A stretch of DNA of 64,000 bases from Myxococcales bacterium. Lineage in GTDB: Bacteria > Myxococcota > Myxococcia > Myxococcales > JAKAPL01. Location: assembly GCA_021807105.1 (NCBI GenBank), contig JAKAPL010000001.1:1-64000 (forward strand), written 5' to 3'. Of the stretch, positions 19,309 through 53,202 are shown one piece after another (the first letter of the stretch is position 1; each line of letters begins with the position of its first letter). The translations under genes and the position numbers were made by a program. The notes beneath the pieces are model-generated. The model did not search any database, was not told the DNA's origin, and was given only the letters and a program-made list of their open reading frames with translations.

Positions 19309-21810
19309 CTACAGGAACCGTCGAATCTCCTCGCCCAGGAGCCGGAGGCGGGCCGGGTCCGCGCGCACCGCCTCCGCGAGCCGCAGCCTCTTCTCCCCGG
19401 CCGGCTCGACGAGCCCCAGGTCGCGGAAGGCGAGCAACGCGTTCTCCAGCGCGAGCTTCGAGAGCGACTCCGGCGCGCCGATGGCCCCCGCGAGGAAGGC
19501 CGCCCTCCCGCGTTCGAGCGCCCGCCGCGACAGCTCGCGCGCCTCGAGCGCCGGCGTGCCCAGGAGCTCCTGCAGCCCCTCCGCGGCCACCCAGTAGCCC
19601 TCCAGGAAGTCGCGCACCAGGTCGCGCAGCAGCTCCAGCCGCTCCCGCGCGGCGATCGACGCCGGCCGTATCCTCCCCCCCCGCTCGACGAGGCCGAGCG
19701 CCGCGCAGATGCCGAGCGTCTCGTCGAAGATCTGGTCGAAGCCCGCCCCCACGCGGTAAACGAACTCGAACTTGAACAGCCGTGAGAGGAAGAGCGTCCG
19801 CGCCCGCGCCGCCGCCTCCTCCGGCGCCCCCTCGCGGAACGAGAGCACCGCCGCGGCCAGCAGCGCGCAGGCGACGTAGGGGTGGAGGAGGTTGTTCTTG
19901 TAGAAGTCGAGCTGCCCGCGGCGCTCCTCGACCGGCGCGAAGTACGTCTCGCCGAAGGCCGACAGCTCCTCGATCGACCCGTCCTTGCGGAAGAGGTCGA
20001 TCGTCTCGCGGATGGGCCCCTCGGCCATCGGATCGCTCGGCGCCTCGTAGAGCACCCGCGACAGCCGCGCGCCGATCTTGTCGGCCGCGTTGCGCAAGAA
20101 CGCGATCCGCTCGCCCATCGCGCGGGCCGGGATGGCGCGCGGCCGGTGGCAGAGCAGCGCCGCGGCGACGAGCGAGGCGGGCGTGACGGTCGCGGCCTGG
20201 GCGATGCCCCAGACGATCCGGTGGGCGAGCACCTGTACCGCCGCGCGCCGCCCCTCGGCCGTGTGCGCCCCAGGGTCGAAGCCGCGCTCGCGGAAGAAGT
20301 CGCGCGCCGAGACCGGCTCCTCGATCTGGATGTAGATGCGGCCGTACCGTGACCGGAGCACGCGCGGCGTCTTGAGGAGCCCGCGCACGTCCTCGGCCTG
20401 CTTCTCCCCGCCCGCCAGCTCGGCCGCGAAGGCCCGCCCCTCGACGATCTTCTCGTAGTCGATGGCGATGGGCACGAACGACACGTCGTGCGAGGCCCCC
20501 TCGATCCACGCGTCGACCTCCATCCCGAGCAGGCCGAGCTTCGGGGCGAGGACCTTCCCCGTCCGGCTCCGCCCGCCCTCGATGAAGAACTCCTGGGTGA
20601 ACCGGTCGCGCATCAGCCGTTTCACGTAGGCGTGGAAGACGGCCCCGTAGAGCCGATCGCCCTTGAACGACCGGCGTAGGAAGAACGCGCCGCCGCGGCG
20701 GAAGATGGGTCCGAGCGGGAAGAACGAGAGGTTCGCGCCCGCGGCGACGTGGGGCGGGGTGAGGCCGGCGTCGTAGAGGACCTTGGACAGGACGAGGTAA
20801 TCGATGTGCGACTTGTGGCTCGGGCAGAGGACCAACGCCGACCGGGCCGCGGCCCGGCGCAGGCGGGCGAGGCCCTGCGCGTCGACCTCGATGCCGTCGT
20901 AGATGCGGTTGAAGATCACGTCGAGGGTGGGCCGCATCACCTCGACCGCGATCGGGCTGTAGGCGGCGGCGATCTCGCGCAACAGCTCCCGCGCCCTCGC
21001 CTCCGCCGCGACCGGCGTGAGGCCGCGCTCCTCGGCCGTCCGGGCGATCGCCGCGCGCAAGGAGCGGTCGCGCAGGACCTCCTCGGCGACGCGCGCCGCG
21101 CTCTTAAGCTGCGGCCCGCGCACGACCCGCGCCTCCCGCGCGAGGTGGTGCCAGAGGGCGCCGCGGACCTTGCGGGCGATCTCCCCGTCCGCCTCCGAGG
21201 CGCGCTCCTGCGCGAAGCGGCGCAGATCGATGGCCTGCCCGACCTTGGCGAAGGCCCGGTGGCGCGCGTAAAGGAACGCCCCCGCCGCGCGGGCGAAGTT
21301 CGGGGAGTCGGGCGTACCGAAGACCGCGTCCACGACGCCGCTCTGCAGCTTCCCCGGGTGGCGCTCCCAGACGAGGACCTGCGGCACGAGAAACACCGGC
21401 CGCCCGTCCTGCCGCACGCGGCGCACGAGCTCCGGGAACGGGTCCTCGTCCTGACTCACGCCGCGGCCCGAGCCGAAGAACTGGGCGTGACGCAGGAAGA
21501 CGAGGCCGGCGTGCCCCGCGAGCACGGCGTCGACCCACCCGCCCGCGCCCGCCTGCCTCGTCCTCGGCTCGATGCGGTAGAGGACGCGCCCGTGGAGGCC
21601 GTGGACCACCCCCGGCACGGGGAGCCCGCGCAGCGCGTAGGCCTCGTTGAAGTAGACGAGGTTCAGGAGGCTCGCCGTCCGCATCACGTAGACGAGCGTC
21701 CCCTGCTCCGCGAGCGCGCGAAGGTCCGTGACGCGCTCCTCGGGGAAGGAGACCTGCCGGAAGAACCGGGCGAAGAACCCCGGCCCGCCGCCTGTTCCCT
21801 CGCGAGTCAC
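19309..21810 (-). CDS. plsB: glycerol-3-phosphate 1-O-acyltransferase PlsB
   Basis: An 833-residue enzyme, the length typical of PlsB, that acylates glycerol-3-phosphate at sn-1, the first step of phospholipid synthesis, at the inner membrane. The HxxxxD acyltransferase motif is in CPSHKSHIDYLVLS; FPLGPIFRRGGAFFLRRSF, EFFIEGGRSRTGK and FVPIAIDYEKIVEG are the other three PlsB blocks. The start is GTG at 21810; an open frame extends upstream but overlaps tesB and lacks family sequence. It lies downstream of tesB on the same strand, separated by hairpin-rich DNA. Confidence 0.93.
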   Translation of the reverse strand: MTREGTGGGPGFFARFFRQVSFPEERVTDLRALAEQGTLVYVMRTASLLNLVYFNEAYALRGLPVPGVVHGLHGRVLYRIEPRTRQAGAGGWVDAVLAGHAGLVFLRHAQFFGSGRGVSQDEDPFPELVRRVRQDGRPVFLVPQVLVWERHPGKLQSGVVDAVFGTPDSPNFARAAGAFLYARHRAFAKVGQAIDLRRFAQERASEADGEIARKVRGALWHHLAREARVVRGPQLKSAARVAEEVLRDRSLRAAIARTAEERGLTPVAAEARARELLREIAAAYSPIAVEVMRPTLDVIFNRIYDGIEVDAQGLARLRRAAARSALVLCPSHKSHIDYLVLSKVLYDAGLTPPHVAAGANLSFFPLGPIFRRGGAFFLRRSFKGDRLYGAVFHAYVKRLMRDRFTQEFFIEGGRSRTGKVLAPKLGLLGMEVDAWIEGASHDVSFVPIAIDYEKIVEGRAFAAELAGGEKQAEDVRGLLKTPRVLRSRYGRIYIQIEEPVSARDFFRERGFDPGAHTAEGRRAAVQVLAHRIVWGIAQAATVTPASLVAAALLCHRPRAIPARAMGERIAFLRNAADKIGARLSRVLYEAPSDPMAEGPIRETIDLFRKDGSIEELSAFGETYFAPVEERRGQLDFYKNNLLHPYVACALLAAAVLSFREGAPEEAAARARTLFLSRLFKFEFVYRVGAGFDQIFDETLGICAALGLVERGGRIRPASIAARERLELLRDLVRDFLEGYWVAAEGLQELLGTPALEARELSRRALERGRAAFLAGAIGAPESLSKLALENALLAFRDLGLVEPAGEKRLRLAEAVRADPARLRLLGEEIRRFL

Positions 21811-26112: not shown

Positions 26113-28551
26113 CTAAGGGGTCGTGAACGTCCAGGGAGGGCCGGCCACCCCGCCGCAGCCCGTGTGGGAGAAGACCCTCCAGAGATGGCGGCCGGAGGCG
26201 GGAGGGGCGGCGAGCGTGCAGGTCGTGCCGGCGATGGAGGAGCAGACGTCGTGCCCATCGAGCCGCACGTCGAAGCCGCTGCCGGCCGCCGAGGCGATCC
26301 AGGAGAGCGACGTGCCGCCGAAGGTGGCGCCATCCGCGGGCGAGGGGGCGGAGACCTCCGTGGGCACGGGCGAGACGGTCAGCTCCTGTTCGGGCGAGAA
26401 GTTCCCTCCGCAACCATTGACCGCCTCGACGTACCAGCGGTGGACGCCGGGCGAGAGCGCGCCGGGCGCAAGAGACGTCCCCGCGGTCGAGCCGGCCAGC
26501 GCGCCGTCGATGACGACGTCGTAGCCCACCGCCCCGGCCGCCGCGCTCCACGAGAGCTCGGGCAGAACCCCGCAGCAATCCGCCTGGTTGAACGGACCGG
26601 ACGGGACGGGGAAGCCGGGTAGGCCCGCGCATCGCGGCACAGGCTGCACGATCACCTCGTCCAGGTTGAGGAAGCCGGAGCTCCCGGCGGGATAGCCGAT
26701 CTTGATCTCCAGCGGCCCCGCGGCGAGGGCGTGCTCGCCGTGGACGCTGCTCCAGTTGTCCCAGGCGCCGGTGGCGGGGAAGCCGAGCGACGAGTTGACG
26801 ACCTTGCCGTCGATGGAGAGCTCCCGCACCGCGGCGCCCGCACCCGCGGAGTAGTGATAGGTGAAACGCCAGTCGCCGGCGTAAGGCACGTTCCAGCGCA
26901 TGACGACCGACTGCCCCTGACTCCCCCAGCCGGCGACGTAACCGAACCCTTCGTACCCCGCGTGGGTCGCCTCGAGCCCGACGCCGTTGAGCTGCCCCTC
27001 CTCCGCCTGGAGGTGGTTTGCCGGGAACGTCCGGCCCGGATACTGCCCCGCGCGGGCGGCGCCGAGGTTGAGCGCCATCAGTGCCGAGGTCTCGGCCGGC
27101 GTATCGGCCGACGAGACCGGCGGCCCGGCCCAGTCGGAGGCGAAGAGGTCACCCGCCCCGCGGGCATAGTCCCAGACCGCGCTGGGACAGGCGGCCAGGA
27201 GCGGCATCTGGGACGATTCCGCGTCCGCGCCGGCGAGGTCGTCGAGGTACCGATAGGCGATCCCCTTGAACTGCTCGCAGTCGCCGGTGCATTGCTGGTT
27301 CGTTCCGTCGTCGAGGACCGGGCCGTCTCCGGTCTGCTCCGTCCGGCTCTCCTGCAGGAAGGCCGCGAAGGTGCGGGCGTCGGCGAGGTACGCGGCGTGG
27401 CCCGTCGCCTCGTGCAGGGCCAGGGCCGCGCCGACCATGAGCCCGTTGTCATAGGTGAACGGCCACCAGCGGACCACGCCGGGAGGGTTCGCCGTGGGCG
27501 AGGTGACGTCGTCGGCCACCTGCCCCTTCGCGTTCACGAAGTTCCCCCGCCAGAAGCCATAGACCTTCTCGGCGAAGGAGAGGTACGCCGCGGCGCCGGT
27601 GCGGGCGGCGAGGCGGACGGCGGTGATCACCGGCCCGGCGTTCGACGCGGTCGCCTTCTGGGTGTGGCCGCCAGTCGGGGCCAAGGCGTTGTCCCACCAG
27701 ATTCCGCCGGGCGTCGCGCCGCAACAACTCGTGTCCCAGGCGGCCTCGATGTCGCCGTAGAGCTTCTCCGCTTCCTGGAGGTAGGCGCCGTCGCCGCTGT
27801 AGTCGTAGGCCCGCAGCAGCGCGAGGGCCATCCAGTTCTCGTCGTCGTAGTAATCGCTCGAGAAACCGTTCGAGTAGCCCGTCTGGTGGCCGGCGGCTGC
27901 GTTGAAGAAGGTCGCGATCGTGCCCTGGAAACCACCCTCGCGCGACGCCGCGTCGAGGACCGCGTCGAGCCCCTGGGCGAAGGTCCAGTAGCCAGTCGGG
28001 CCCGTCGAGGCGCAGCCGCCGCCCCAGCACGAACGAAGGTAGTCGGAGGACTGCTGCCAGTAGTGGACGAGGAACTGCCCCGTGGCCTCGTCGGCGTGGG
28101 CGTGGAGCGCGGGCGCGAGCTGACGGGGGGCGCAGGCGGACCCGGGAAAGCCCGATGAGGTCTGGCCGCTTCCGCCGCTGGTTCCGCTCGTGCCGCCGCC
28201 GCCCGACGAGATCCCGCTGCTCGCGCCACCCGTCGAGCCGCCGCCCGACGAGATCCCGCTGCTCGCGCCACCCGTCGAGCCGCCGCCCGACGAGATCCCG
28301 CCGCTCGACCCACTCGTCGTGCCGCCGCCCGACGAGACCCCGCCGCTCGACCCACTCGTCGAGCCACCGCCCGAGGACATCCCGCCGCTGGACCCGCCCG
28401 TCGTGCCGCCGCTCGACGAGACCCCGCCGCTCGCGCCGCCCGACGAAGCCTCGCCGTTCTCCCCACCGCCCGCGGGCGCGACCGTAACCGCGCTCGGCGC
28501 GCAGGCGGCGACGAGCGCGAACGAGCTTGCCACTCGCAGCAGGCGCCCCAC
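26113..28551 (-). CDS. GH76 alpha-1,6-mannanase-like lipoprotein with CBM
   Basis: An 812-residue predicted lipoprotein (ALVAAC lipobox). After a Ser/Gly/Thr linker of about 110 residues comes a GH76-type (alpha/alpha)6 domain: DDENWMALALLRAYDYSGD carries the DD catalytic pair, with GGIWWDN and RWWPFTYDNGLMVGAAL further on. A CBM6/35-like domain (FPANHLQAEEGQL to LNLDEVIVQP) and two fibronectin-like repeats (SWSAAAGAVGYDVVIDG and LSWIASAAGSGFDVRLDG) complete it. It would cut fungal or bacterial alpha-mannan at the cell surface. The start is taken as GTG at 28551 because the signal peptide begins there; the frame is open further up without signal-like sequence. Confidence 0.87.
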   Translation of the reverse strand: MGRLLRVASSFALVAACAPSAVTVAPAGGGENGEASSGGASGGVSSSGGTTGGSSGGMSSGGGSTSGSSGGVSSGGGTTSGSSGGISSGGGSTGGASSGISSGGGSTGGASSGISSGGGGTSGTSGGSGQTSSGFPGSACAPRQLAPALHAHADEATGQFLVHYWQQSSDYLRSCWGGGCASTGPTGYWTFAQGLDAVLDAASREGGFQGTIATFFNAAAGHQTGYSNGFSSDYYDDENWMALALLRAYDYSGDGAYLQEAEKLYGDIEAAWDTSCCGATPGGIWWDNALAPTGGHTQKATASNAGPVITAVRLAARTGAAAYLSFAEKVYGFWRGNFVNAKGQVADDVTSPTANPPGVVRWWPFTYDNGLMVGAALALHEATGHAAYLADARTFAAFLQESRTEQTGDGPVLDDGTNQQCTGDCEQFKGIAYRYLDDLAGADAESSQMPLLAACPSAVWDYARGAGDLFASDWAGPPVSSADTPAETSALMALNLGAARAGQYPGRTFPANHLQAEEGQLNGVGLEATHAGYEGFGYVAGWGSQGQSVVMRWNVPYAGDWRFTYHYSAGAGAAVRELSIDGKVVNSSLGFPATGAWDNWSSVHGEHALAAGPLEIKIGYPAGSSGFLNLDEVIVQPVPRCAGLPGFPVPSGPFNQADCCGVLPELSWSAAAGAVGYDVVIDGALAGSTAGTSLAPGALSPGVHRWYVEAVNGCGGNFSPEQELTVSPVPTEVSAPSPADGATFGGTSLSWIASAAGSGFDVRLDGHDVCSSIAGTTCTLAAPPASGRHLWRVFSHTGCGGVAGPPWTFTTP
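28170..28450 (-). repeat. 42-bp coding repeats, Ser/Gly linker of GH76 gene
   Basis: Imperfect tandem units of about 42 bp encode SSGGGSTGGASSGI-type peptides; two adjacent units near 28200-28290 are identical. The units make a flexible linker between lipid anchor and enzyme and are likely to vary in number by slippage. Confidence 0.7.
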
Positions 28552-36790: not shown

Positions 36791-37143
36791 GCCCGTCTGG
36801 ATCCACGGGCGGCGCGGCGAGGCGTTCGAGCGCGCAGGCGAGAAGGGCGCGCGAGAGCGACGACCGCCGAGGCGTCGCGTAAAGCACCTCCCCCCAAGCC
36901 TGTCTTATTCACGGTACGGCGTAGCGAGGCGTTCGAGACCGCAGCCGAGAAGGGCAAGCGAGAGCGACGACCGACGAGGCGTCGCGTAAAGCACCTCCCC
37001 CCAAGTCGTTTGGAGGGTGGCAAGCCCCCCGCAGGAGGAAGGAGCGAGCACACCCCCCCATGTCGTTGTAGGGGTGGCAAGCCCCCCCTTCGGGAGGCGC
37101 GGGATCGGACGCCGCGGCAGGCGGACCGTGAATCCAGACGGTC
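36791..37143. mobile_element. R1 element, compound copy 2
   Basis: A 353-bp element flanked by TCA at 36788-36790 and 37144-37146. The right TCA is the reverse of the TGA stop of the gene at 37144. Outer ends are diverged inverted repeats (GCCCGTCTGGATCCACGG and its partner GGACCGTGAATCCAGACGG). A second R1 left end, CTGTCTTATTCACGG, starts near 36899, so two left halves lie in tandem. Near the right end two related 28-bp units containing GGTGGCAAGCCCCCC repeat in direct order. No coding function is apparent in 36707-37143. Confidence 0.7.
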
Positions 37144-38931: not shown

Positions 38932-39299
38932 GAGCCTGGTGTCAAACGAAAACAATTAGCCCTTCTTATTCACGGTACGGCGTAGCGAGGCGTTCGAGAC
39001 CGCGAGCCGAGAAGGGCAAGCGAGAGCGACGACCGACGAGGCGTGCGTAAAGCACCTCCCCCCAAGTCGTTTGGAGGGTGGCAAGCCCCCCGCAGGAGGA
39101 AGGAGCGAGCACACCCCCCCATGTCGTTGTAGGGGTGGCAAGCCCCCCCTTCGCAGGCGCGGGATCGGACGCCGCAGCAGCCGGACCGTGAATAAGACGG
39201 GCTTAGAGAAGCACCCCCCTCTGGAGCACGCAGCTCGCCTCTCCAGGCTCTGGGTGCGAATGGCTTTCCCAATGGCTCTTCCAGTTTCACACCAGCCTC
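38932..39299. mobile_element. R2-type element, copy D, with nested R1
   Basis: The outer ends GAGCCTGGTGTCAAA and, from the right, GAGGCTGGTGTGAAA lie between CTAG at 38928-38931 and CTAG at 39300-39303. Inside at 38959-39202 is an R1 copy. Apart from its ends, the R2 core here differs from copies A, B, C and E (it has CTCTGGAGCACGCAGCTCGC), so it is a separate subtype. The whole insert separates the HlyD-like and TolC-like genes of one operon. Confidence 0.75.
38959..39202. mobile_element. R1 inverted-repeat element, copy 3, nested in R2
   Basis: A 244-bp element with ends GCCCTTCTTATTCACGGT and its inverse (GACGGGC at the far right), flanked by TTA at 38956-38958 and 39203-39205. It includes the paired GGTGGCAAGCCCCCC units seen in copy 2. 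Lying inside R2 copy D, it must have inserted later than that R2 copy. Confidence 0.8.
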
Positions 39300-40481: not shown

Positions 40482-41660
40482 CTAGGCCGTGCCGACCTCG
40501 CGGGTCTCCCAGCTCCCCGAGTCGAGCGTGAAGAGGGCGAGCGGCGTGCAGAGCAGGTAGGTCACGGGCATCACCACCGCCATCGCCAGGAACCAGAGCG
40601 GGTGGACGCGCAGCGCGGCGGGGTAGCGGCGGACCCCGAACCCGTAGACGGCGCCGAAGAAGGCGAGGATCGTCAGGTTGAACGCCGCCAGGTCCCAGAA
40701 GGTGTCCTGGGTCAGGTTGTAGTAGACGACGAATGGGTACGAGATCAGCATCCCGAAGAGCGAGAGGTAGTGGACGGCGACGAGCGGCGGGAGCTTCCAG
40801 GCGTGGGAGAGGCCGCCGAAGAAGTCGACGAGGTTCGAGCGGCGCCAGCGGAGCTGCTGGGAGAAGTACTTGTCGAGGGTCGGCGGCGCCTGCGTCCAGC
40901 AGACCGCGTCCAGGGTGGTGAACGTCTCCCACCCGGCCTTGATGATCTGGCGCGTCAGGAACCGGTCCTCGCCGTACTTGATCGGCACGCCGAAGATCCG
41001 CCGGTTCTCCAGGACGGGCTCGAGCTGCACGAGCACCTCACGCCGGAAGGCGGAGAGGCAGCCGGAGAGGCACATCACCGAATGGAAGGTCTTCTCCAGA
41101 TTCTTCAGGTATTCGTAGCTGAAGAAGTACTTGATCGCCTGCATCTTCGTGAGCCAGTTCTCGTTTGCGTTGGCGACGTTCACCCTCCCCCCCACGGCGG
41201 CGATCCTCGGGCTCGTGAAGCGGCGGAGCAGCTCGCGGAGCGCGCCCGGGTCGACCTCCACATCGGAGTCCACGGAGACGATGATCTCCGACCGGCTCTC
41301 CCGCACGGCGCGGTTGATCGAGAGCCTCTTGCCGAGGTTCTCCGGGTTGCGCAGGACGCGGAAGTTCCTCCGGCCGCCCCCCGCGGCGAGGGCGTGCGCG
41401 CCGCTCCCGTCCGTCGAGGCGTCGTCGACCATCACGAGCTCGATCTTCTCCTCGGGGTAGTCGAGCGCGAGCAGACTCTCGACGGTCCTCGCGACCCGCG
41501 GCCCTTCGTTGTACATGGGGGTCACGACCGTCACGGTCGGCTCATAGTCGTCGACGGTTCGGTCGAACCCGGCCCCTCGCACCCACCGGAGGTAGGCCCC
41601 CAGGAAGTAGCGGTTCACCCAGACCAGAAACACCAGCAGGTAGACGGGCAACAGCGTCAA
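40482..41660 (-). CDS. processive family 2 glycosyltransferase (polysaccharide synthase)
   Basis: A 392-residue membrane glycosyltransferase of the hyaluronan/chitin/cellulose synthase type. The motifs are VTPMYNEGPRV, VMVDDAS, SVDSDVEVD (DxD), CLSGCLSAFRREV, GEDRFLTRQI and the processivity motif QQLRWRRSN. One helix precedes and four or more follow the catalytic domain. It would polymerise a sugar nucleotide and extrude the chain; the sugar cannot be told. The start is uncertain: TTG at 41660 behind GAGGAG fits the first helix, while the frame stays open through the repeat array upstream. The gene begins a GT2-HlyD-TolC-exported-protein operon. Confidence 0.85.
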   Translation of the reverse strand: MTLLPVYLLVFLVWVNRYFLGAYLRWVRGAGFDRTVDDYEPTVTVVTPMYNEGPRVARTVESLLALDYPEEKIELVMVDDASTDGSGAHALAAGGGRRNFRVLRNPENLGKRLSINRAVRESRSEIIVSVDSDVEVDPGALRELLRRFTSPRIAAVGGRVNVANANENWLTKMQAIKYFFSYEYLKNLEKTFHSVMCLSGCLSAFRREVLVQLEPVLENRRIFGVPIKYGEDRFLTRQIIKAGWETFTTLDAVCWTQAPPTLDKYFSQQLRWRRSNLVDFFGGLSHAWKLPPLVAVHYLSLFGMLISYPFVVYYNLTQDTFWDLAAFNLTILAFFGAVYGFGVRRYPAALRVHPLWFLAMAVVMPVTYLLCTPLALFTLDSGSWETREVGTA

Positions 41661-41885
41661 CGGTTCGGGCTCCTCATGTCTTGCTGGTTCCTCCCCTCCA
41701 TTCGTAACGACGTCCCGTAGTGCCGTCAACAAAACAGCCGCCAAACCGATAGGCGTTTGGCGCGCCGAGGATAGGCAGGGGATGGGCAGAGCGTTCCCGC
41801 CCCCAAGGCCCCGATTCCAAACGCAGGGTCTGTCTGCGGCTTCCTTCGATCGCTGCGGACCTGCGGGCATCGGGAGCGGGTTTTT

Positions 41886-41939
41886 GCAACGACGCAGGGT
41901 GGGTGGTCGAAGAGTGGGTCTGGTCCACTCCCTCCCCCC
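41886..41939 (+). repeat. direct repeat bounding the array, left copy
   Basis: GCAACGACGCAGGGTGGG opens a segment that ends CACTCCCTCCCCCC. A diverged direct copy lies at 42613-42665 (GCAACGACACGCGGGGTG, ending CCACCCTCCCCCC). Each contains a short dyad, here GTGGGTCTGGTCCAC. Confidence 0.55.
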
Positions 41940-41997
41940 GAGGAGCCATCCCATGTTTCTTGAGCCATCCGCTCGATTCCTGGACCCGTTCCGGCCC

Positions 41998-42580
41998 GCC
42001 CTTCCGCCCCTCCGATCGCAGCCTCCGGGCCTCCAATCGCTGCTTCCGGCTCTCCGTCCGCAGCCTCCGAGGCTCCGTCCGCAGCCTCCAAGGCTTCCAT
42101 CGATGCCTCCAAGCCTTCCATCGATGCCTCGAAGCCTTCCATCGATGCCTCGAAGGTCCCGGGCAGATCCTTCCGGTGACCCGATCGCTCCTTCCGGCTG
42201 CCCGATCGCTGCTCTCGGCGACCCGATCGCTGCTTCCGGCGACCCGGCCGCTGCTTCCGGCTCTTCGGCGGGCTCGACGGAAGGCTTCGAGGCATCGACA
42301 GGAGCCTTCGAGGCATCGATGGAAGGCTTCGAGGCATCTTCCGGAGAGTCCGGGAGCACGATCGATCGACCCGGAAGCTGCGATCGGAGCCTTGGAAGCT
42401 GCGGACGGAGACGTGGAAGCTGCGGACGGAGACGTGGAGGCTGCGGACGGTGGCTCGGGAGCTGCGATCGATGGCTTGGAGGCTGCGATGGAAGGCTTGG
42501 AGGCTGCGATGGAAGGCTTGGAGGCTGCGATGGAAGGCTCGGAGGCTGCGGACGGGGCCGCGGAAGCTTTCGATCGGAGA
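41998..42580. repeat. long inverted array of 21-bp-type repeats
   Basis: The left half carries units such as CTTCCATCGATGCCTC (three times near 42090-42150) and CCGTCCGCAGCCTCC. The right half carries their reverse complements GAGGCATCGATGGAAGGC (near 42290-42330), GAAGCTGCGGACGGAGACGT, and a run of GGAGGCTGCGATGGAAGGCTT units (21 bp, about 42475-42540). The two halves are mirror images around about 42230 and could fold into a hairpin of several hundred bases. Period 21 keeps all frames open, which creates spurious peptides such as LEAAMEG repeats. No match to CRISPR layout exists: there are no unique spacers of uniform length. Confidence 0.7.
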
Positions 42581-42612
42581 GCCGGTTCCCGGCCTCGGCG
42601 GTCCTTTGGGGG

Positions 42613-42665
42613 GCAACGACACGCGGGGTGGGGGGCGAAACTTGGGTCAGCTCCACCCTCCCCCC
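42613..42665 (+). repeat. direct repeat bounding the array, right copy
   Basis: This is the partner of the repeat at 41886-41939, lying about 90 bp upstream of the membrane-protein gene at 42752. Its position suggests that the promoter-proximal DNA of that operon was duplicated, with the inverted array caught between the copies. Confidence 0.5.
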
Positions 42666-42751
42666 TTGCCCGCGCCGTCCGGAATCCTGTAGTGTGCGCC
42701 CACTACCGGGGCCGAGGCGCCGTCGCGGCTCCCTTCCGCTTGGAGGGTTAC

Positions 42752-43318
42752 ATGTCGCAGCAGAGCAGCAGGATGTCGTTGGGTGAGGTTCTCCGTTTCT
42801 TGGGCACGTGCTCGCTGGCGGTCGCGGTCGTCTGCGCGACGTTCCCGGCGCAGGCGCGGGCCGACGTCACCACCTCGGAGATGTACGCGCAGGCCTACCC
42901 CCCTCCCCCGTCGTACCCGCCCCCGGGCTACGGGCAGGCGCAGTACGGCGCGCCGCAGTATGGGGCTCCGCAGTACGCCCCCGCCGCGATGCCGAACCCC
43001 GCGGACGTGGCGACCGCCGGCGCCGACGCCTTCGCGGACGTGCAGATGCAGATCAACAGCGTCCTCTGGTTCTTCATCGGCTTCATCCTCTCCTGGGTCG
43101 GCATCATCCTGGGCTACGTGATCACGCCCTCGCCGGACGGCGCCCGAATGATCGGGAAGTCGTCGGCGTACGTGGCCGCCTACACCGAGGCGTACGGCTC
43201 GGCGGGCCGGTCCAGGCAGGGCACGTGGGCTCTGTACGGCGCCATCACGAGCTGCGTGCTCTGGATCGTCTACTGGGTCCTCTGGATCGGCGTCTTTGGC
43301 TACGCGTTCTGGTTCTAA
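42752..43318 (+). CDS. membrane protein with Pro/Tyr/Gln-rich loop
   Basis: A 188-residue protein: an N-terminal hydrophobic segment (LRFLGTCSLAVAVVCATFPA), a PPPPSYPPPGYGQAQYGAPQ repeat region, and two C-terminal membrane helices (SVLWFFIGFILSWVGIILGYVI and LYGAITSCVLWIVYWVLWIGVFGYAF). GGAGGG precedes the ATG at 42752. It opens a five-gene co-directional cluster up to 46254. The function is unknown; the layout resembles small envelope proteins with a low-complexity extracytoplasmic loop. Confidence 0.7.
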   Translation: MSQQSSRMSLGEVLRFLGTCSLAVAVVCATFPAQARADVTTSEMYAQAYPPPPSYPPPGYGQAQYGAPQYGAPQYAPAAMPNPADVATAGADAFADVQMQINSVLWFFIGFILSWVGIILGYVITPSPDGARMIGKSSAYVAAYTEAYGSAGRSRQGTWALYGAITSCVLWIVYWVLWIGVFGYAFWF

Positions 43319-52947: not shown

Positions 52948-53065
52948 ACCCGTCTCATTCACGGTCCGGCTGCTGCGGCCTCCGATCCCGCGCCTACGAA
53001 GGGGGGGCTTGCCACCCCTACAACGATAGGGGGGTGTGCTCGCTCCGTACCTCCTCGCGGCCTTT
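52948..53065. mobile_element. R1 element fragment (left half)
   Basis: CCCGTCTCATTCACGGTCCGGC marks an R1 left end, and the next 100 bp match the family, including a reversed GGTGGCAAGCCCCCC unit and the text GTGTGCTCGCTCC. The right end is missing; a 21-bp tandem array follows in its place. Upstream, AGGAGGCTGAATGCGCG at 52924 is a possible further R2-like end. Confidence 0.55.
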
Positions 53066-53170
53066 GGGCGAGACCAGTGCTCGTCTGGGCGAGATCAGTG
53101 CTCGTCTGGGCGAGATCAGTGCTCGTCTGGGCGAGATCAGCGCTCGACAGGCCAAGATCAGCGCTCGGCA
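53066..53170 (+). repeat. five tandem 21-bp repeats
   Basis: The unit GGGCGAGATCAGTGCTCGTC plus T is repeated about five times, the last two diverged (CAGCGCTCGACA, CAGCGCTCGGCA). It interrupts the broken R1 copy. It differs from a CRISPR in having no spacers. Confidence 0.8.
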
Positions 53171-53202
53171 GGGCGACCTCGCCGGCCGGCGCTCCGAAGT
53201 AG

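Follow-up and report, generated by a model that had tools for sequence, protein, structure and literature searches.

The locus described here lies in the window, by which we mean the whole 64,000-nucleotide stretch of DNA that was analysed, between two divergent genes. On its left, a family 2 glycosyltransferase gene (Pfam Glyco_tranf_2_3, E 7e-33) occupies 40482..41675 on the minus strand; the closest named glycosyltransferase comes from a Myxococcales MAG. On its right, a plus-strand gene at 42752..43318 encodes a membrane protein-like product of 188 aa that had no Pfam match. Between these genes, positions 41940..42656, read on the plus strand, are occupied by a non-autonomous transposable element (MITE) of 717 bp that belongs to the GAGGAGCT family, carries an inverted array of 21-bp units, and has relatives in the same Myxococcota genome. 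The borders were set by full-length copies on contigs C70, C96, and C77, which begin and end at the same bases. The left terminal inverted repeat (GAGGAGCCATCCCATGTTTCTTGAG..., 41940..41970, plus strand) was defined by the family alignment. The right one (GTGGAGCTGACCCAAGTTTCGC read inward, 42635..42656, minus strand) was defined by a pattern search of the genome, in which 16 sites were found as compared to 0 for the reversed control. Immediately outside the element, the target duplication CCTCCCCCC at 41931..41939 is identical to its right copy at 42657..42665, although its low complexity makes this match weak if taken alone. An older short family member that lacks its left end lies at 41791..41928 on the plus strand and matches ~20 short copies.

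The sequence-only reading of this region had described a diverged 21-bp array, and this was confirmed. Self-match was 65% at lag 21 as compared to 28–30% at lags 20 and 22, and Tandem Repeats Finder placed arrays from 42003 to 42579. The reversal of unit orientation claimed for the middle of the array was also borne out by tandem and inverted repeats, and it lies near 42270. The left arm (42003..42261, plus strand) runs in one direction and the right arm (42274..42579, minus strand) in the other. Within the array, inverted arms of 122 nt and 94 nt are 74% and 86% complementary, respectively, and 41940-42656 folded as single-stranded DNA reached −251 kcal/mol (z = −14.4), with none of 20 shuffled sequences equally stable. 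Pairing of the two halves as a long hairpin, as had been proposed, is therefore possible. The 53-bp direct repeats said to bound the structure do exist, but they are imperfect and do not delimit the unit. The left repeat (41886-41938) consists of the right end of the older short copy plus one copy of CCTCCCCCC, whereas the right repeat (42613-42665) consists of the long element's own right end plus the other CCTCCCCCC copy. This arrangement is asymmetric, and the true element is the one bounded by the terminal inverted repeats.

Long open frames cross the array on both strands, and the earlier caution that these would mislead gene callers was sound. A 21-bp period by itself leaves frames open on both strands, and the region might accordingly be read as coding for a heptapeptide-repeat protein. 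Codon-level selection, the check that had been suggested, was looked for across copies. Substitutions were distributed among the three codon positions, which gives coding no support. In addition, copies differ by 1-base and 8-base indels, and the orientation of the units flips inside every frame. We consider a protein-coding origin of the repeat barely credible.

A search of the genome (3.76 Mb, 129 contigs) with the element returned 99 matches, and the family comprises ~30 relatives of ~187–750 bp with no codon signal. Several copies in addition to the full-length ones run to contig ends, as expected because repeats break assemblies. Two array copies on contig C14 of this genome (G000), near 786 and 30585, lie ~30 kb apart and have a common right flank; this pair is due either to segmental duplication or to an artefact of assembly. 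A much shorter form came to light when each of the two ends and the sequence immediately left of the element were used as separate queries. The 187-bp consensus aligned from short copies folds as one hairpin over nearly its whole length (z = −3.3 as DNA). The base form of the family is thus a ~187-bp palindrome, and a swollen subfamily of ~600–750 bp carries 21-bp units in its arms. Copies C93a and C105, with just one or two units per arm, look like intermediates between the two forms. The orientation flip within the window element accordingly marks two palindrome arms that have each been enlarged by tandem units. Among the four complete long copies, identity is 93–96% and, apart from 1–9-bp indels, the gaps are exactly 21 or 42 bp. 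This pattern indicates that the array changes by whole units, and that it was probably an already swollen master copy that spread.

The family ends, GAGGAGCTACCCCA and GTGGAGCTGACCCA, are terminal inverted repeats; over the longer stretches GAGGAGCTACCCCATTTT and GTGGAGCTGACCCACTTTT, ~16 of 21 positions match. Target duplications of 7–9 bp flank many of the copies in which two ends can be read, at least seven insertions in all: CCTCCCCCC in the window, TGAAGGC at C96, GCGGCGGG at C77, ATCAGGGC at C78, AAAGGGC at C70, GCGCGAC at C93b, and TCGGCGC at C107b. Among the older copies, a clear duplication was absent at C92 and C124b, and degraded duplications were present at C16, C96b, and C88. In the case of C78 and C70, the duplication spans the long element together with a second hairpin segment on its left. 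This extra segment, CCATGAAACCAGGAGGTTTTCTTCCTGCCTTCCTGGTTTCCTCAT, lies just left of the long elements at both loci (L042 and L033, respectively) and inside the same target duplication, which makes both copies composite elements. When the long element and the short consensus were compared with up to 98 related genomes, there were no credible copies among the matches listed, only short internal matches. Comparison of the consensus element with plasmids gave only 28-bp chance matches, and a search of viral contigs gave nothing useful. We describe the window element as one of the long copies in a palindromic MITE family that has so far been seen only in this genome; the species restriction is provisional because relatives were judged on the matches listed per genome.

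A mobilizing partner was sought by searching the genome for transposase domains. An rve match and two DDE_Tnp_1 matches were rejected as partners, as none has the MITE ends. A third DDE_Tnp_1 match identified the partner. An open frame at the start of C110 ends in GAGGAGCTACCCCA read inward, the first 127 bases of C110 are identical to the end of C19, and on C19 GAGGAGCTGCCCCA precedes the start of the transposase gene. The outer flanks of both halves carry CAGATGCG, an 8-bp duplication. We therefore infer that the halves are one intact insertion sequence of ~1474 bp, cut by the assembly and split between contigs with a 127-bp overlap. This insertion sequence has the same 14-bp ends as the MITE. 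Further, in a chimera on C93, adjoining 19680-19859, the first 110 bp of the insertion sequence (99% identical) run without a break into the interior and right end of the MITE. This junction is physical evidence that the ends of the two elements have worked together. The MITE thus has ends in common with an autonomous element, both in the C19/C110 insertion sequence and in the C93 chimera. On this sequence evidence, the transposase of the larger element probably moves the MITE. The sequence-only reading had stated that the repeat fits no named class known to it, and that statement is no longer supported: this is a minisatellite-bearing MITE that has terminal inverted repeats and target duplications, ~30 relatives, and a likely autonomous partner. 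Its idea of a recombination-type product was near the mark, whereas neither a chromosomal structure nor a dedicated regulatory RNA is needed as an explanation.

The partner transposase matches IS4-type models and the Tn5 transposase, and has the complete IS4 YREK signature YFARWSVEEYHRFVK in a single frame. NCBIfam matches were to the IS4, IS701, IS1634, IS1380, and IS5 models, with none to a Mutator-like model. The curated cut-offs were not reached (49.8 bits vs 152 for the best NCBIfam model, IS4; 21.1 vs 23 for Pfam DDE_Tnp_1), and for that reason the element is called IS4-type and assigned to no named subgroup. Relatives of the transposase in 147 genomes of the class, and in 195 of the phylum at a stricter limit, were only 29–34% identical and came from one family of the order; terminal repeats of these relatives were not found.

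Insertions of both the MITE and the insertion sequence tend to place one end ~11 bp (the 8-bp duplication plus 2–3 bp) upstream of an outward-facing −35 box. When the flanks were read outward, 17 of 41 ends had a TTGAC beginning at position 11, 12, or 13 (position 12 in 12 of them), as compared to an expectation of 0.08 from its frequency in 403 kb of the genome, in a list that was assembled by eye after the flanks had been seen. The ends were then rechosen by a fixed rule, and TTGAC was present at 11–13 in 15 of 43 ends vs 1 of 258 decoy positions located 300–900 bp away. Within the flanks themselves, 17 TTGAC occurrences were in positions 11–13 as compared to 8 in the other 63 positions (P 1e-17). 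When sites with TTG at 9–13 were considered, 16 of 22 had a −10-like hexamer (at least 3/6) at 16–18 bp, vs 9% of random positions. This excess is smaller when the comparison is to all TTGAC sites (12/17 against ~24%). Left and right ends can both face the promoter. In the case of the insertion sequence itself, TTGACA lies ~12 bp away from the end, and TTGACG lies 12 bp away from the left end of the C93 chimera. More than half of all ends have no TTGAC at 11–13; many of these are the far end of a promoter-facing element, but not all. Statistically, these results show a tendency of the MITE and the insertion sequence to lie at this spacing from a −35 box.

The window copy has the same layout. 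A −35-like hexamer, which is TTGCCC rather than TTGACA, lies at 42666..42671 on the plus strand, 9 bp from the element end. It starts at flank position 10 and fits the family-wide spacing. A −10-like hexamer read from the sequence, TAGTGT (42690..42695, plus strand), follows 18 bp after it and precedes position 42752, the start of the membrane protein-like gene, by 56 bp. A sigma-70 scan of 41500-43000 gave no promoter at the scan threshold, and the putative promoter is called because of the layout shared with the family, not because of that scan. An empty site was not shown, as the glycosyltransferase loci L052 and L053 had no match to the divergent neighbour.

A similar habit appears in distant relatives of the partner. 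Among plasmid-borne relatives of the transposase, the best matches are from Thermus (30% identity). Their 1314-bp element has ends CAGGRCTTTACCCA that resemble GAGGAGCTACCCCA at 9 of 14 positions when compared by eye, and it makes 8-bp duplications. At five of six Thermus insertions, TTGAC or TTGAA faces outward and begins at position 10, 11, 12, 14, or 17, and the sixth has none. On pTA16, the duplication ATTACAGA is followed by ACC and TTGACA, which is the 11-bp spacing of the window genome. In this small sample of six insertions, the spacing is similar to that of the window-genome elements.

The same distribution could in principle come from selection rather than targeting, with insertions occurring anywhere and persisting only where no gene or promoter is disrupted. 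An insertion that survives has to lie outside coding DNA, and the region upstream of a promoter is tolerant; selection may contribute. However, selection alone would scatter insertions over the upstream region, whereas 16 of the 17 cases are at positions 11–12. The 43 ends of a second MITE family (CCCGTCTTATTCACGGT) at the same loci show no such peak, and the Thermus relatives keep a similar spacing. Selection as the whole cause appears improbable to us.

We favor a joint reading, to which we give a probability of roughly 85%: the window element is a GAGGAGCT-family MITE, mobilized in trans by an IS4-type transposase and inserted just upstream of a −35 box, whose array grew in the hairpin arms. 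The IS4-type transposase would act in trans on the MITE ends and would make cuts staggered by 8 bp in target DNA immediately upstream of the −35 hexamer, possibly recognizing that hexamer or RNA polymerase bound there. The 21-bp units would have multiplied in the hairpin arms by tandem duplication, and the swollen master copy would then have spread by transposition. To our knowledge, Tn5 and Tn10, the best-studied members of this transposase type, are not known for reading promoters. No evidence of a host function of the array was found from codon positions, Rfam, or covariation. The element is most likely selfish, and stopping just short of a promoter would be a low-harm landing place.

Promoter targeting is already known from other elements. 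TnGBS, ISLre2, and part of ISKra4 insert at 15–17 bp upstream of primary-sigma promoters using Mutator-like transposases, and their near-symmetric ends allow either end to face the promoter (PMC3942029). The elements described here are alike in the fixed promoter-upstream distance and in the use of either end, which is a functional likeness and not membership. A Mutator-like transposase of the ISKra4/ISLre2 type might be supposed to move the MITE, given that such elements make the same kind of target choice (PMC3942029). The published distance of 15–17 bp differs from the ~11 bp seen here, though, and the element that has the same 14-bp ends, has the same target spacing, and formed a chimera with the MITE is IS4-type. 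We hold a Mutator-like mover to be very unlikely.

In the IS4-family survey (PMC2266710), members are characterized by a single-frame transposase, the Y(2)R(3)E(6)K signature, duplications of about one helix turn, and similarity to Tn5, as is the partner. Its ends, GAGGAGCTRCCCCA, match 0 of 7 published subgroup end patterns in Table 1 of that survey, the nearest being IS4Sa (CA------T) (PMC2266710). The survey leaves promoters unmentioned but describes strong target-arm specificity for certain elements of the IS4 and IS4Sa groups (PMC2266710); this specificity could be the same behavior in other terms. In our literature search, targeting of −35 boxes was not reported for any IS4-type element, although such a report may exist.

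Two MITE groups are also comparable. BrickBuilt of Porphyromonas gingivalis is a species-restricted intergenic MITE with a 23-nt tandem repeat between end segments and inverted-repeat ends (PMC4596501). The window element likewise has a short tandem repeat trapped between inverted-repeat ends. However, its 21-bp unit is present on both palindrome arms in opposite orientation, its ends are unrelated, a co-resident partner insertion sequence was identified, and insertions are at a fixed distance from −35 boxes. Correia elements of Neisseria are, like the present family, short non-coding MITEs, often immediately upstream of genes (PMC10969869). They bring their own promoters, whereas the element here stops just short of an existing one.

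On balance, though with some reserve, we favor a broader proposal. An IS4-type group found in Myxococcota and, at 30% identity, on Thermus plasmids would have evolved promoter targeting independently of the Mutator-like enzymes, integrating ~11 bp upstream of −35 boxes by reading the box or bound sigma/RNA polymerase. This niche would have allowed the MITE to disseminate a hairpin minisatellite, which would also have passed between MITE families that are unrelated. Confirmation would mean that bacterial DDE transposases acquired promoter targeting on at least two occasions, and the way in which a transposase finds a promoter would become directly testable. In addition, −35 boxes of an uncultured bacterium could be mapped from the element ends. 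What appeared as an odd repeat is a clear example of a mobile element whose address is precise and linked to promoters, and the occurrence of one minisatellite in two unrelated MITE families is also of interest.

The 21-bp unit consists of GGAGGCTGCGGACGGA plus five variable bases. Arrays of GGAGGCTGCGGACGGA units are also present inside second-family MITE copies on C23, C61, C16, C113, C103, and C21. Second-family MITEs carrying the window element's unit between unrelated ends were located at L043:4161-4933, L045:4650-5274, L049:3924-4560, and L117:3319-3950, which indicates that the minisatellite moved between MITE families. In the one congener genome examined for arrays (G001), diverged inverted arrays of ~21 bp lie directly after the stop codons of two genes (L031:1480-1930 and L027:1450-1800) and lack the GAGGAGCT ends. 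The presence of the unit in the second family and of congener arrays without these ends suggests that the minisatellite probably predates the element that now carries it and has changed carriers.

These observations also bear on whether the array began as an independent host hairpin, such as a transcript end structure or regulatory RNA, that was captured by the MITE, with its function residing in the hairpin. The position of the congener arrays after stop codons, the occurrence of the unit in two MITE families, and the strong folding are all consistent with such an origin. In contrast, an Rfam scan of the window gave no match, and the recognised long copies in this genome travel with MITE ends. 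The base palindrome shows weak covariation, which was not counted as support for an RNA function. A captured functional hairpin is in our estimation unlikely, albeit the most serious of the alternatives considered. A host origin of the unit and the MITE as its vehicle are mutually compatible.

The second MITE family occurs many times in the genome, once nested in a GAGGAGCT-family copy on C88. In the window, copies are present at 967-1139, ~36810-37005, 38960-39201, and 52949-~53200; the target duplications of the family are ~5 bp long, as with GTAAC at 967-1139. Next to a second-family end, 53065-53176 holds a distinct tandem array with a 21-bp period, TGGGCGAGATCAGTGCTCGTC. At 28195-28433, a 42-bp tandem repeat of 5.7 copies that are 89% alike stays open in a minus-strand frame and is possibly a coding repeat.
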